A stretch of 64,000 bases of DNA from Planctomyces sp. SH-PL62. Its GTDB lineage: Bacteria; Planctomycetota; Planctomycetia; Isosphaerales; Isosphaeraceae. Position 1 is the stretch's first letter. Every line of letters starts with the position of its first letter. The notes beneath the pieces are model-generated. The model was not told where the DNA came from. It did not search any database and worked only from the letters and a program-made list of their open reading frames with translations. Made by a program: the position numbers and the translations under genes. Of this stretch, positions 4,418-59,611 are shown piece after piece. The stretch is from positions 2,170,001 to 2,234,000 of the forward strand of contig NZ_CP011273.1 of assembly GCF_001610895.1 (NCBI RefSeq), read 5' to 3'.

Positions 4418-4824
4418 ATACTGCCCATCCCTCTCGTCCTGGAGTCGGGTAAGTCAGGGAGGTGCGCAAGTTCCCGAGAATGAACATGTTATTCCAGCGG
4501 GAGCGCCTTGCCCAGATGCCAACCGCGATTTCGGGGGACGACGCCTGGCGGGGGTCGTCGTCGGCCGGATCGCTCCTACAATAAGAACGTCTCCCTGGGG
4601 CCGACCGCGAGGCGAGGACGACCGGCGTCCTTTCCCGCGAGTTTCCACCGCGTTTTCCGAGACTCCTCACTCGACTCCACCGAGTTCCGGCGGGATCCCT
4701 TCGGGCGCCACGCGTTCCGCGAACCCGTGGACCGGCCGGGGATCGGGACGACGGCCCGAGGCCGGCCCGACGCCTTTGACGTGGCGGAGCCAGGTGAGGA
4801 CTCTCCGTTTTCTTATCACATTTC
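4418..4824. other. Divergent intergenic region holding a dispersed repeat
   Basis: About 400 bases separate the radical SAM gene (leftward) from the hydrolase gene (rightward). The right half (about 4663-4785) is copy A of the repeat described separately. The left half should hold the radical SAM promoter, but no clear pair of hexamers stands out. Confidence 0.5.
4663..4785 (+). repeat. Dispersed repeat, copy A
   Basis: This stretch matches the reverse complement of about 59465-59590 over roughly 110-120 bases. Shared blocks include CTCCACCGAGTTCCG and GTGGACCGGCCGGGGAT, followed by GGGACGACGGC. The spacing between blocks is conserved, and the similarity extends into one translated frame (STEFRR...VDRPGIGTTAR). 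Copy A lacks the perfect 19-bp inverted ends seen in copy B. Confidence 0.8.
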
Positions 4825-5859
4825 ATGCCACGATTTCCGATTCTCCGTCCCGCCGTCCCCCGGCGCGGCCTCGCCGCCGAGATCCCGGCCTTCGCGCCCC
4901 ATCCCTGGATCCGGGGGGGGCACGCCCAGACGATCGTCGGCCGCTACCTGGGCCCGAACCGCTCGCCGCGGCCTTCGAAGGCGGCGACGATCGCGCTGCC
5001 GGACGGCGATCGGCTCCGGGTGAGGGAGTCGCTGCCTGAAGGGTGGGGCGAGCGCGCGCCGGCGGCCGTACTGCTGCACGGGCTGGCGAGCACGGCGGAA
5101 GCCTCGTACCTCGTGCGGTTCGCCCGCCGCCTGGACGACCTGGGGGTCCGGGTGGTCCGGGTCAACCTGCGCGGGGCGGGGGAGGGCTTCGGCCTGGCCC
5201 GGGGGTTCTATCACGCCGGCCGGACCGAGGACGTCCGGGCGGTCGTCGACTGGCTGGCGGAACGCGCACCGGGATCGCCGATCGCGGTCGCGGGCTTCTC
5301 GATGGGGGCGAACCAGGCGCTCAAGCTGGCCGCCGAGTCCTCCCGGCCCGATTACCCGGGCGCCCGGATCGACTGCGTCCTGGCCGCGAACCCGCCGATC
5401 GACCTGTCGCTCTGCTGCCGCGCCATGCGACGCCCCGAGAACCGCGTGTACGATCGGAGCTTCGTCCGCTGGCTGGGCGCCCAGGTGCGCAGGCTGCACG
5501 AGCGCTTCCCGGACCTCGGCCCCGCCGAGATCGAGGACGTCCGCTCGCTGTACGACTTCGACGACCGGTACACGGCGCCCCGCAACGGCTTCGCCGACGC
5601 CGAGGACTACTACCGTCGCAACAGCGCCGGGCCGCTCGTCCCCGAGATCGCGGTCCCCGGCCTGGTCGTTCACGCCGCCGACGACCCGTTCATCCCGGCC
5701 TCGGCCTTCGAGGCCGTCGCCTTCCCCCCGAACGTCCGGTTCGAGCTGCTCCCCCACGGCGGCCACCTCGGCTACGTCAGCCGACGCCCCTGGCTCGGCG
5801 ACCGCCGCTGGCTGGAGACCCGACTGGCCGCCTGGCTGGCCGGGCGCTGGGGCGGGTGA
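4825..5859 (+). CDS. YheT-type alpha/beta hydrolase
   Basis: A 344-residue alpha/beta hydrolase of the YheT/AB-hydrolase-4 family. The family hallmark WIRGGHAQTI is at residues 28-37. The oxyanion region LLHGL is at 83-87, the nucleophile elbow GFSMGAN puts Ser at 159, and the acid and base are likely Asp in HAADDPFIP (about 278) and His in PHGGHLGY (about 315). Family members are carboxylesterase-like enzymes with poorly defined substrates. There is no signal peptide, so it should be cytoplasmic. It precedes the molybdopterin oxidoreductase by about 130 bases on the same strand, but a functional link is not evident. Confidence 0.85.
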   Translation: MPRFPILRPAVPRRGLAAEIPAFAPHPWIRGGHAQTIVGRYLGPNRSPRPSKAATIALPDGDRLRVRESLPEGWGERAPAAVLLHGLASTAEASYLVRFARRLDDLGVRVVRVNLRGAGEGFGLARGFYHAGRTEDVRAVVDWLAERAPGSPIAVAGFSMGANQALKLAAESSRPDYPGARIDCVLAANPPIDLSLCCRAMRRPENRVYDRSFVRWLGAQVRRLHERFPDLGPAEIEDVRSLYDFDDRYTAPRNGFADAEDYYRRNSAGPLVPEIAVPGLVVHAADDPFIPASAFEAVAFPPNVRFELLPHGGHLGYVSRRPWLGDRRWLETRLAAWLAGRWGG

Positions 5860-16829: not shown

Positions 16830-19031
16830 TCAGAGGATCGGCCGACGGGGAGCGGGCGCGGGGTCGTCGATGCGCGAGACGGGGACGAGACGGATCGTGA
16901 CGGGCTCCGGATCGCGGCGAGCCCGGAGCGCCTGGCCGGGCTCGCTCATCAGGTCGCCGCACCGGACGGAGAGCGAGGCGGGCCCTTCGGCCAATCCGTC
17001 GAACCGGAAGCGGCCGGAGGCGTCGGTCCGCGCGACCTCGACCCGCGGGTTCTGCCTCGAATGGTTTTCGACCTGGGCCCCCTCCACCGGCCTGCCGTCT
17101 ACGTCCACGACCGTGCCGACGACAGAGCAACCCGGTGCCAGCAGGACATCCGGAAAAGTCGCGGGCTTGCCTCGCTCGACGTCGAGAGGCTCGGTGTCGA
17201 CGCCGACGAACCCCTCCTTGCTCACCAGCAGGCGGATCGCGGTCGGCGCGGCTCCCGCCACCGCGTCGGGCATGCAGTCGAGCCGATAGCGGCCCCGCTC
17301 ATCGGTGGTCGCCCGGCAGGATTCCGTCGCGATCATCGTGCTGCTCGTCGAGCCGTTCTCGTTTCTCCAAACGTAGGCGGCTTCGACCAGGGCTCCGGAG
17401 ACGGGGTCGCCCGAGCGGTCGACGACCGTCCCGCCGACCTCGGCGAGCACCGCCGGCTCGGACGAGGGCAGTGCGACGTGGATCGCCATCCGGCCGTCTT
17501 CGAGACGCGGTTGGATGTGGCCGCCTTCCTTGCATTCCAACTGGGCCGACCGGCCCTCCCCGTCCATCAGCCGGTAGCGATCCGATCCGTCAAGGCGTTC
17601 CACGCTCCGGACGGCCTCGGGTCGGAAACCGTCGTCCCACCGGAGCGAGAACCCGAGCGGCCGGGCGTCCCACCGCCGAGGCGCCTCGATGTTGCCCTCG
17701 ATCTCGCCGCCGGTGCGGGGGAGCCCCATCCGCGCCACGCCATCGGCACCCGCGACGGCCCGGACGGGCCCTGTAAAGATCCTACCGTGCGCAGCCGGGC
17801 GGCCGTCGCCGGCCCAGGCCAGCTGGAACTCCCAGGTCGCCCCCCGACGCATCGGATAGTCCCTGCGCGCGACCGGGGCGGCGTCCCCCACCGCGAACGG
17901 CGTGAAGCTCAGCCCGTCCCACAGGACATAGCAGCCTGGTGCGGGCTCGATCCTCGGCATGGAGCAGTGCCCTGGCGGCAGATCCACCGAGTAGACGCCA
18001 TCTGCGCCGGACTGGGCGGACTTAAGCACCAGTTCCTTCTTGCCCGGTTCCGAGGTGAAGACCTCGACCGTGGCGCCGGCGATCGGCTCTCCGGTGTCCG
18101 GGTCTGCGACCCGTCCAGTGAGTCGGTACTTCGTCGGCGAGCGGGCTCCGAAGGCTTCACGAGACGGAGCCGCCTTGTCATCGGCCGCCGAGGCGTTCCA
18201 GGTCCACGCGCCGGCCGCCAGGGCGAGCAAGGCGACCGACGCTCCGATGAGTTTCGAGATCCGCATGGTCCGCAAGGCTCCTTGGGTCAGGTTCAGGACG
18301 GGGATCGGGACGCCGGCGCCGAGGGCCGAGGCGGCGAGGGTCGCCAGCCTCGCCGTCGCGGTCGACAGGGCGACAGGGACGAAGGGAGGGGGGAGCGGGG
18401 CGAGGGCCCGGGCCGGGTCGGAGACGCCTCGGCGTTCGAGGCGGGCCCGCAGCCGCTCCTTGCCTCGCTTCAGGCGGACGCCGAGGGTGCCGAGCGGGCA
18501 CTGGAGCTGTCGCGAGGCGGCCTCGTAGGTCAGGCCCTGGAGGTGGCAGAGGACGATCGGGTCGCGATACCGGGCGGGGAGTCGGTCGAGTTCCTCGATC
18601 AGGATCGCCAGGTCGTCGGCCGTGTCGGGCGGGAGGGAGACGGTGGGCGCCATCGCTCCGGCCCGGTGTTCGTGGACGCGTCGTCGGGCCGAGTTCGCCC
18701 TCGCCCGGGCCGCGACCCGGCGGGCGACTCCGAACAGCCAGGGGGCCAGGGAGGCGCGGCGGCGGACGCTCGGCGCGCGGCAGGCCAGGATGAGGAACGT
18801 CGCCTGGAAGGCGTCCTCGGCGTCGGCGTCCGAGCCGGCGGCGGAGCGGCAGACCTGATGGACCATCGCCCCGTGCCGCGCCAGGATGGCCTCGAACGCG
18901 GCCTCCGCCCCGTCCGCGCGGTCGAGGAACCGCCCGAGCAGCTCCGCGTCGTCGAGCCCGGCGAGGGAGCCCGCCTCGTACAGCGTCTGGATCGAGCGGA
19001 CCAGCCCGCCCCCGCCCCGGCTTGCCGTCAT
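16830..19031 (-). CDS. ECF sigma factor fused to a membrane-anchored carboxypeptidase-regulatory-like region
   Basis: A 733-residue protein. Residues 1-190 are a sigma-70 family ECF sigma factor: region 2 (AEDAFQATFLILACRAPSVRR...WLFGVARRVA) and region 4 (LPARYRDPIVLCHLQGLTYEAASRQL...GTLGVRLKRGKERLRARL). A long linker follows, then one hydrophobic segment (LIGASVALLALAAGAW), then about 450 residues with at least three carboxypeptidase-regulatory/TonB-plug-like beta units (GRVADPDTGEPIAGATVEV; GGTVVDRSGDPVSGALVEA; GTVVDVDGRPVEGAQVEN). This suggests a sigma factor tethered to the inner membrane with a sensory region outside. An AGGAGGG ribosome site fixes the start. No separate anti-sigma gene is next to it. 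Confidence 0.88.
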   Translation of the reverse strand: MTASRGGGGLVRSIQTLYEAGSLAGLDDAELLGRFLDRADGAEAAFEAILARHGAMVHQVCRSAAGSDADAEDAFQATFLILACRAPSVRRRASLAPWLFGVARRVAARARANSARRRVHEHRAGAMAPTVSLPPDTADDLAILIEELDRLPARYRDPIVLCHLQGLTYEAASRQLQCPLGTLGVRLKRGKERLRARLERRGVSDPARALAPLPPPFVPVALSTATARLATLAASALGAGVPIPVLNLTQGALRTMRISKLIGASVALLALAAGAWTWNASAADDKAAPSREAFGARSPTKYRLTGRVADPDTGEPIAGATVEVFTSEPGKKELVLKSAQSGADGVYSVDLPPGHCSMPRIEPAPGCYVLWDGLSFTPFAVGDAAPVARRDYPMRRGATWEFQLAWAGDGRPAAHGRIFTGPVRAVAGADGVARMGLPRTGGEIEGNIEAPRRWDARPLGFSLRWDDGFRPEAVRSVERLDGSDRYRLMDGEGRSAQLECKEGGHIQPRLEDGRMAIHVALPSSEPAVLAEVGGTVVDRSGDPVSGALVEAAYVWRNENGSTSSTMIATESCRATTDERGRYRLDCMPDAVAGAAPTAIRLLVSKEGFVGVDTEPLDVERGKPATFPDVLLAPGCSVVGTVVDVDGRPVEGAQVENHSRQNPRVEVARTDASGRFRFDGLAEGPASLSVRCGDLMSEPGQALRARRDPEPVTIRLVPVSRIDDPAPAPRRPIL

Positions 19032-59325: not shown

Positions 59326-59446
59326 GCCGGCAGGGCTTCCCTGGCCGCGAAGATCGTCCGGCGCGGCGCGGCGCGCGATGTGGTTCTCAGAGACTCCATC
59401 ACATAACACCACCACCGCCTCAAGGGGATCGGGAGACGGCGATCGG

Positions 59447-59590
59447 GGTGCCACGGGTTCTCCGACCCCGTGGATCGGCGTCGAGCCGGTCCCGAGCCGT
59501 CGTCCCAATCCCCGGCCGGTCCACTGATTCGGAGAACCCGTGGCACCCGGAGATCTTCCGTCGGAACTCGGTGGAGTTGAGTGAGGAGTT
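59447..59590 (-). repeat. Dispersed repeat, copy B, with 19-bp inverted ends
   Basis: This copy is in the opposite orientation to copy A at 4663-4785. Its core (59447-59547) is bounded by a perfect 19-bp inverted repeat: GGTGCCACGGGTTCTCCGA at 59447-59465 and its complement at 59529-59547. It therefore has the shape of a 101-base MITE- or REP-like element. Shared sequence with copy A continues outward to about 59590 (GGAACTCGGTGGAGT). It lies between rpsR and the leuA promoter. Confidence 0.82.
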
Positions 59591-59611
59591 CCGGTTCTCA
59601 TCGATGAGAGG

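Follow-up and report, generated by a model that had tools for sequence, protein, structure and literature searches.

Two sites of the window, the 64,000-nucleotide stretch of DNA analysed here (C1:2170001-2234000 of the Paludisphaera genome G000, 6.78 Mb in 5 contigs, hereafter the source genome), share a sequence in inverted orientation, which raised the question of what kind of repeat this is and how it was spread. Positions 4662-4774 (+) and 59589-59477 (-) gave a 113-bp alignment with 84% identity (BLAST E ~1e-30) and a local score of 138 compared to a maximum of 29 among 200 order-1 resamplings of those regions, which excludes chance GC-rich similarity. The preliminary description of this DNA had proposed a dispersed repeat with many genomic copies; both proposals were confirmed, and the two-layer structure reported below had been missed. 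The elements at the two sites, copies A and B, reach past the match originally noted. BLAST against the source genome returned at least 41 matching pieces for A (best 40 of 167 candidates scored) and at least 60 for B (best 40 of 158 candidates scored), several pieces per copy in each case. A count that used the palindrome and the ends as markers gave 32 copies, made up of 26 palindrome-bearing units, an interrupted copy (L129) kept apart from these units because its palindrome is broken, and five short derivatives (L123-L127) that resemble ragged deletions; a fragment at C1:580152 was left out. At L129:1506-1944 (G000:C1:1466505-1466943) an insertion of ~250 bp, bordered on each side by the 6-bp repeat TCAGAG (by eye), breaks the second palindrome and adds a third mobile layer. 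Elsewhere in the window a 29-bp stretch at 18296-18324, possibly a fragment, resembles a portion of copy A's core region at ~90% identity (E 2e-4 within the window).

Coding potential and anatomy of the repeat

The gene context of the copies was examined for 30 of the 32, L014 and L051 being left out. Of these, 29 were intergenic and one overlapped a predicted 3' end, as judged by a simple codon-model gene caller, which is crude. The preliminary description had noted a weakly conserved translated frame, and this was not borne out. Stop-free frames were counted in 13 of the 16 long copies; the six frames were free of stops in 7, 3, 2, 4, 2 and 0 of the 13, compared to an expected fraction of 0.37 per frame. 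Copy length also varies (198, 199 and 200, for example), which reveals indels that interrupt any frame. These results led us to reject a protein-coding explanation, and the element has no coding capacity of its own, as is usual for MITEs.

A full copy of ~199 bp consists of a 23-bp terminal repeat, an arm, GGGTG, a palindrome, a 47-bp core, a second palindrome, CACCC, a second arm and the other terminal repeat, and the 23-bp palindrome of the source-genome family reads CCACGGGTTC-NNN-GAACCCGTGG. Among 27 classified units of the source genome, 11 were long with one core orientation, 5 were long with the core inverted (L011, L015, L016, L018 and L023; 5/16 long) and 11 were short or truncated with a single palindrome. 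A clean MITE lacking the inner palindrome unit was not found among the copies of the source genome. Palindromes were paired at near-fixed spacing, as inverted doublets that fold as hairpins, in 16 copies of the source genome and 31 of P. soli JC670 (G031), where three apparently inverted cores (L072, L088, L118) were left unused because their arms were ambiguous. The three loop bases of the paired palindromes were reverse complementary in 7 of the 16 source-genome pairs (shuffled mean 2.1) and in 14 of the 31 P. soli pairs (mean 5.0), counts that were reached in none of 5000 shuffles, a comparison that overstates significance because family members are related by descent. Loop identity was not clearly enriched (0/16 versus 0.4 expected by shuffle in the source genome, 4/31 versus 3.8 in P. 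soli). Paired palindromes therefore tend to have the same sequence when read from the foot.

Copy B (59390..59592, minus strand, 203 bp) is a full-length MITE and contains the inner palindrome pair in complete form. Palindrome 1, numbered along the element, lies at 59521..59543 (-), the 47-bp core at 59474..59520 (-, orientation F) and palindrome 2 at 59451..59473 (-); the inner pair forms one long hairpin of -43.1 kcal/mol as single-stranded DNA (z -6.25). The corresponding z reached -11.3 in L009. Identical target duplications GGTTCTCA (8/8) flank the copy at 59382..59389 and 59593..59600. Copy A (4659..4805, plus strand, 147 bp) is an internally deleted MITE from which the second palindrome and the greater part of the right arm are gone; the two terminal repeats remain, as do the first palindrome and the bulk of the core. 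Its left terminal inverted repeat (4659..4681, -) has one mismatch to the terminal repeat pattern, its right one (4783..4805, +) is degenerate with 5 mismatches, and its REP-type palindrome (4708..4730, +) has one mismatch to the consensus. The flanking octamers, CGTTTTCC at 4651..4658 and CGTTTTCT at 4806..4813, match at 7/8 positions. Copy A ends 20 bp upstream of the predicted start of a 344-aa frame at 4825.

An ISL3-like MITE as the outer layer

Insertions of the repeat are marked by target-site duplications. The 8 bases on either side matched at 7 or more positions in 16 of 26 source-genome copies (permuted mean 0.94, maximum 8 in 10,000 permutations), in 5 of 15 copies of P. soli alone (permuted mean 0.33, maximum 4) and in 24 of 49 copies from four genomes together (permuted mean 0.77, maximum 5). 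The source-genome test covered 25 rule-found copies and copy B; L002, L007, L014, L021, L051 and L052, each with one end degenerate or missing, were omitted, and by eye the flanks of L014 match at 7/8 and those of L002 do not. The duplication has a fixed length of 8 bp, mean flank identity in the 25 rule-found copies being 0.78 at this length versus 0.23-0.46 when 4-7 or 9-12 bases were taken. A+T made up 52% of the target octamers and 35% of the flanks. The short repeat AATTGGSTTCGTTCGGCGC or its complement often adjoins MITE ends (flanks of L004, L008, L009, L015, L060, L081 and L147), and its A+T-rich surroundings may serve as a target site.

A candidate parent element with the same terminal inverted repeats is present in the congener G032. 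Contig C20 (1-1460) carries a 440-aa open frame (L131:9-1331) between MITE-type ends. The outer end lies 129 bp from the start of the transposase frame; the second end runs 4 bases past the edge of the contig, and a complete version of it opens contig C83. The protein matched Pfam DDE_Tnp_ISL3 (PF01610) at 49.5 bits (cutoff 23). Since it scored far under the cutoff of the NCBIfam ISL3 model (58 bits versus 180; IS66 model, 51.9 versus 180), we call it ISL3-like only. Protein matches to this transposase, many of them partial, were obtained in 18 of 45 family genomes. The ends of seven related complete elements (from G001, G028, G037, G038 and G040) lie 1530-1538 bp apart, or 1844 bp in G028, and six of the seven are flanked by identical 8-bp duplications (L177, 6/8). 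The ISL3 family makes target duplications of 8 bp.

The parent insertion sequence thus survives in relatives, and a protein search of the source genome found no intact ISL3-like transposase gene, only broken pieces. One of these, L130 on a small contig (G000:C3:46759-46980), is a dead remnant with a terminal repeat (C3:46958-46980), the leader and the first 31 transposase residues (C3:46759-46851, 77% identity), so the shared ends are seen in the source genome as well as on the two G032 contigs; the second is a 41-residue piece at C1:1457113-1457232. Because only broken parent pieces were found there, the MITE family is probably immobile in the source genome at present. These data establish well that the outer layer is an ISL3-like MITE of ~199 bp or shorter. 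A DDE transposase acting on the terminal repeats would have moved it in the past, leaving 8-bp duplications at A+T-richer intergenic sites.

Elements with related ends are widespread in the family. Of the 45 family genomes, 31 contained the end pattern, which matched 69 times in G010, 38 times in G016 and 39 times in G020. When one locus was taken from each of 24 genomes, a paired end lay no more than 500 bp away in 13 of these loci, one of which (L206) is a G030 copy counted elsewhere as well. Duplications of at least 7/8 flanked 9 of these 13 loci. We also compared the flanks of the 32 source-genome loci with fetched P. soli loci, considering the 25 longest matches. Among these, L009 matched P. 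soli L147 on both flanks, the P. soli copy being shortened, and this insertion looks ancestral from the shared flanks; L015, L125 and L127 gave long one-sided flank matches, and the remaining matches were shorter, at 68-71% identity, and included some repeats.

Inner palindromes and RAYT genes

We next consider the palindrome pair. With copy B as query, many strong matches in the 45 family genomes were found only in the source genome and P. soli, with one weak match each in G015 and G030. In an exact scan for the 19 specified bases of the palindrome, P. soli accounted for 31 of 32 stretches and a Woeseiaceae MAG for the remaining one, in a contig collection that may omit records of or near the window's genome.

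In P. soli, palindromes of the source-genome type flank a gene for a REP-associated tyrosine transposase (RAYT), an HUH/Y1 single-strand transposase. The 194-aa protein (L218:1171-1755) contains HVH and later tyrosine motifs (by eye), scored 97.6 bits with NCBIfam REP_Tyr_transpos (cutoff 80) and matched the TnpA_REP chain 4er8 over 40 residues (E 1.5e-5); the palindromes lie 60 bp before its start and 57 bp past its stop. Downstream, a stretch between two palindromes resembles an eroded MITE arm (by eye). A third congener, G030, has a RAYT homologue (L186:891-1418; 54.5% identity over 176 aa to that of P. soli) flanked at 655-678 and 1500-1583 of L186 by a palindrome of its own, CATGGCCACGC-NN-GCGTGGCCATG, which occurs in 103 copies in G030 (up to one mismatch) and in none of 44 other family genomes. 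The neighbour gene in P. soli had no match in the fetched G030 loci, and synteny of the two RAYT genes was thus not established. G030 has a second RAYT-like gene (80.5 bits, cutoff 80) on contig C45, and directly upstream of it L213 ~1180-1460 holds tandem-like copies of a unit with GAAATTCGGTGTCAGTTCTATTTCCTTGCGTCGTG; the PF01797 protein on C45 had no palindrome of the pattern used for P. soli and G030 within 1.5 kb.

In the source genome we found no palindrome-flanked RAYT, and RAYT protein matches were absent from the fetched source-genome loci and the window. A PF01797 search of six genomes of the genus gave matches in five, the P. soli RAYT being one of them, and none in G000. The P. soli protein passes this model by a narrow margin (24 bits, cutoff 23), and a RAYT with no palindromes nearby may therefore still be present in the source genome.

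These associations support well the assignment of the inner layer as a REPIN, in which two 23-bp palindromes in inverted orientation enclose a core of ~47 bp. From the proximity of palindromes and RAYT genes, the RAYT would be the expected mobiliser of this unit. The inverted cores in 5 of 16 long copies and the short forms with one palindrome could have arisen by strand switching or recombination at palindromes.

Units with and without MITE arms

Two congeners that keep a palindrome-flanked RAYT also have palindrome units without recognisable MITE arms. We scored unit flanks against the arms of the same species, with a threshold set at the 99% null from other sequence of the same loci. Arms were present on both sides, one side and neither side in 24, 2 and 0 of 26 source-genome units, 13, 10 and 14 of 37 P. 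soli units, and 9, 6 and 27 of 42 G030 units. The P. soli and G030 units were collected mostly by palindrome, which favours intact palindromes, and those with flanks off the fetched stretch were skipped; the 42 G030 units are part of its 103 palindromes. In contrast to the MITEs, the 27 long units among the 41 armless ones (11 in P. soli, 16 in G030) were not bordered by direct duplications of any length from 2 to 10. Four armless G030 units (L183, L227, L234 and L247) have a common left flank ending AGAGCCAGCCGCC, so some G030 units may ride in a second carrier. The same four sit in an apparent second long inverted repeat.

The alternative that fares best is a plain ISL3-like MITE whose palindromes are native, the armless units being old MITEs whose ends have eroded and the link to RAYTs secondary or coincidental. 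It would explain why each of the 26 source-genome units has at least one arm, why some units have a single arm, as erosion would leave them (10/37 in P. soli, 6/42 in G030), and why MITEs with related ends in other family genomes also carry strong inner hairpins, mostly of different sequence (z below -4 in 9 of the 13 paired-end loci; absent in L190, L191, L203 and L207). Armless units may indeed include MITEs with decayed arms, because the arm threshold is strict and the stretch that follows the P. soli RAYT gene looks, by eye, like such a decayed arm; diverged arms may be missed, and L184 lies exactly at the threshold and looks arm-like by eye. Against a plain MITE, however, the RAYT homologue is flanked in two species by that species' own palindrome type, 27 of 42 G030 units and 14 of 37 P. 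soli units are armless though most palindromes are intact, and the 27 long armless units lack a target duplication. We therefore regard this alternative as unlikely.

A functional intergenic structure under host selection (a terminator, attenuator or regulatory RNA) would account for the strong hairpins and the intergenic position. The copies, however, follow no single gene arrangement (neighbouring genes were codirectional at 19, divergent at 5 and convergent at 5), their presence varies among congeners, copy A has lost the structure (z -0.55), and an Rfam search of the window gave no family at the gathering threshold, which makes this explanation very improbable. That the repeat is a REPIN family only, with the outer terminal repeats as incidental flank, fits the palindromes being its most conspicuous and most structured part, but the 8-bp duplications directly outside the terminal repeats, the transposase gene bounded by the same ends and terminal-repeat elements without an intact palindrome leave this reading a negligible chance.

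We thus conclude, with high though not full confidence, that the repeat combines two non-autonomous mobile elements, one nested in the other, namely a REPIN within an ISL3-like MITE. Since no RAYT was found in the source genome and all 26 units there have a MITE arm, the REPIN would have outlasted its RAYT as a passenger of the MITE. A broader proposal, which we advance tentatively and hold to be plausible rather than probable, is that ISL3-like MITEs of the Isosphaeraceae are serial carriers: the MITE of each lineage may take up, and may exchange, the hairpin of a resident RAYT, the repeat would alternate between DDE double-stranded and HUH single-stranded transposition, and the hairpin could outlive the RAYT as a passenger. 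It is suggested by MITEs with related ends across the family that carry inner hairpins of differing sequence, the difference between genera being seen by eye. Stepwise co-variation of the source-genome and G030 stems was tried and rejected, as the stems do not align (score 5.0 versus shuffled mean 5.1). Homology of arms and cores between these genomes received weak support: in three of eight comparisons 74, 8 and 8 of 2000 shuffles attained the observed score, and the other five were not significant (341, 596, 603, 1049 and 1412 of 2000). Stem swapping inside one conserved MITE is for this reason put forward as conjecture.

Relation to known elements

Both kinds of element are known, and our verdict is that the new feature is a REPIN carried inside an ISL3-like MITE. 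The repeat resembles bacterial insertion-sequence MITEs in its terminal inverted repeats, target duplication of fixed length, lack of coding capacity, shorter deletion forms and parent transposase in relatives, but differs in that its interior is a hairpin pair of another mobile class with no obvious remnant of a transposase gene. REPINs are described as repeats spread by RAYTs (PMC3116915), whose frames are flanked by two inverted REPs (PMC2817692). The repeat agrees with these accounts in its two inverted palindromes around a spacer, its intergenic position, a RAYT flanked by the same palindromes and a palindrome type that varies by species. It departs from them in the MITE arm on each of the 26 source-genome units and in the hairpin foot, which by eye is GTGC (within GGGTGCC) in the source genome, P. 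soli and G030 rather than the canonical GT(A/G)G; GTGG feet were seen by eye in hairpins of L133, L188 and L193 from other genomes. Atypical feet have been described, together with a class of Y1 proteins drawn in part from planctomycetes (PMC6006769), and so have species-specific REPs with orthologous RAYTs as well as RAYT loss (PMC3686654).

Another close precedent is provided by REP dimers lodged within a different palindrome (GTAG-15 of A. variabilis and CGTC-1 of H. neapolitanus; PMC3733652), where a REP pair regularly lies in a larger inverted repeat. The part of that report available to us states that no REP-free target palindrome was encountered, and it names neither a transposase for the outer repeat nor a duplication, both of which were found here (a same-ended transposase and 8 bp). 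Titles and abstract openings retrieved for REPIN or REP with MITE, for ISL3 with MITE, and for MITEs, insertion sequences and RAYTs of planctomycetes, Paludisphaera or Isosphaeraceae contained no REPIN carried by an insertion-sequence MITE, and an earlier description is possible.

If true, carriage of a REPIN in a DDE-type MITE would give it a second route to spread and a means to persist after loss of its RAYT. Three states are represented among the congeners, with a RAYT and mostly armless units in G030, a RAYT and mixed units in P. soli, and no RAYT found and 26 of 26 armed units in the source genome, which makes this idea directly testable.
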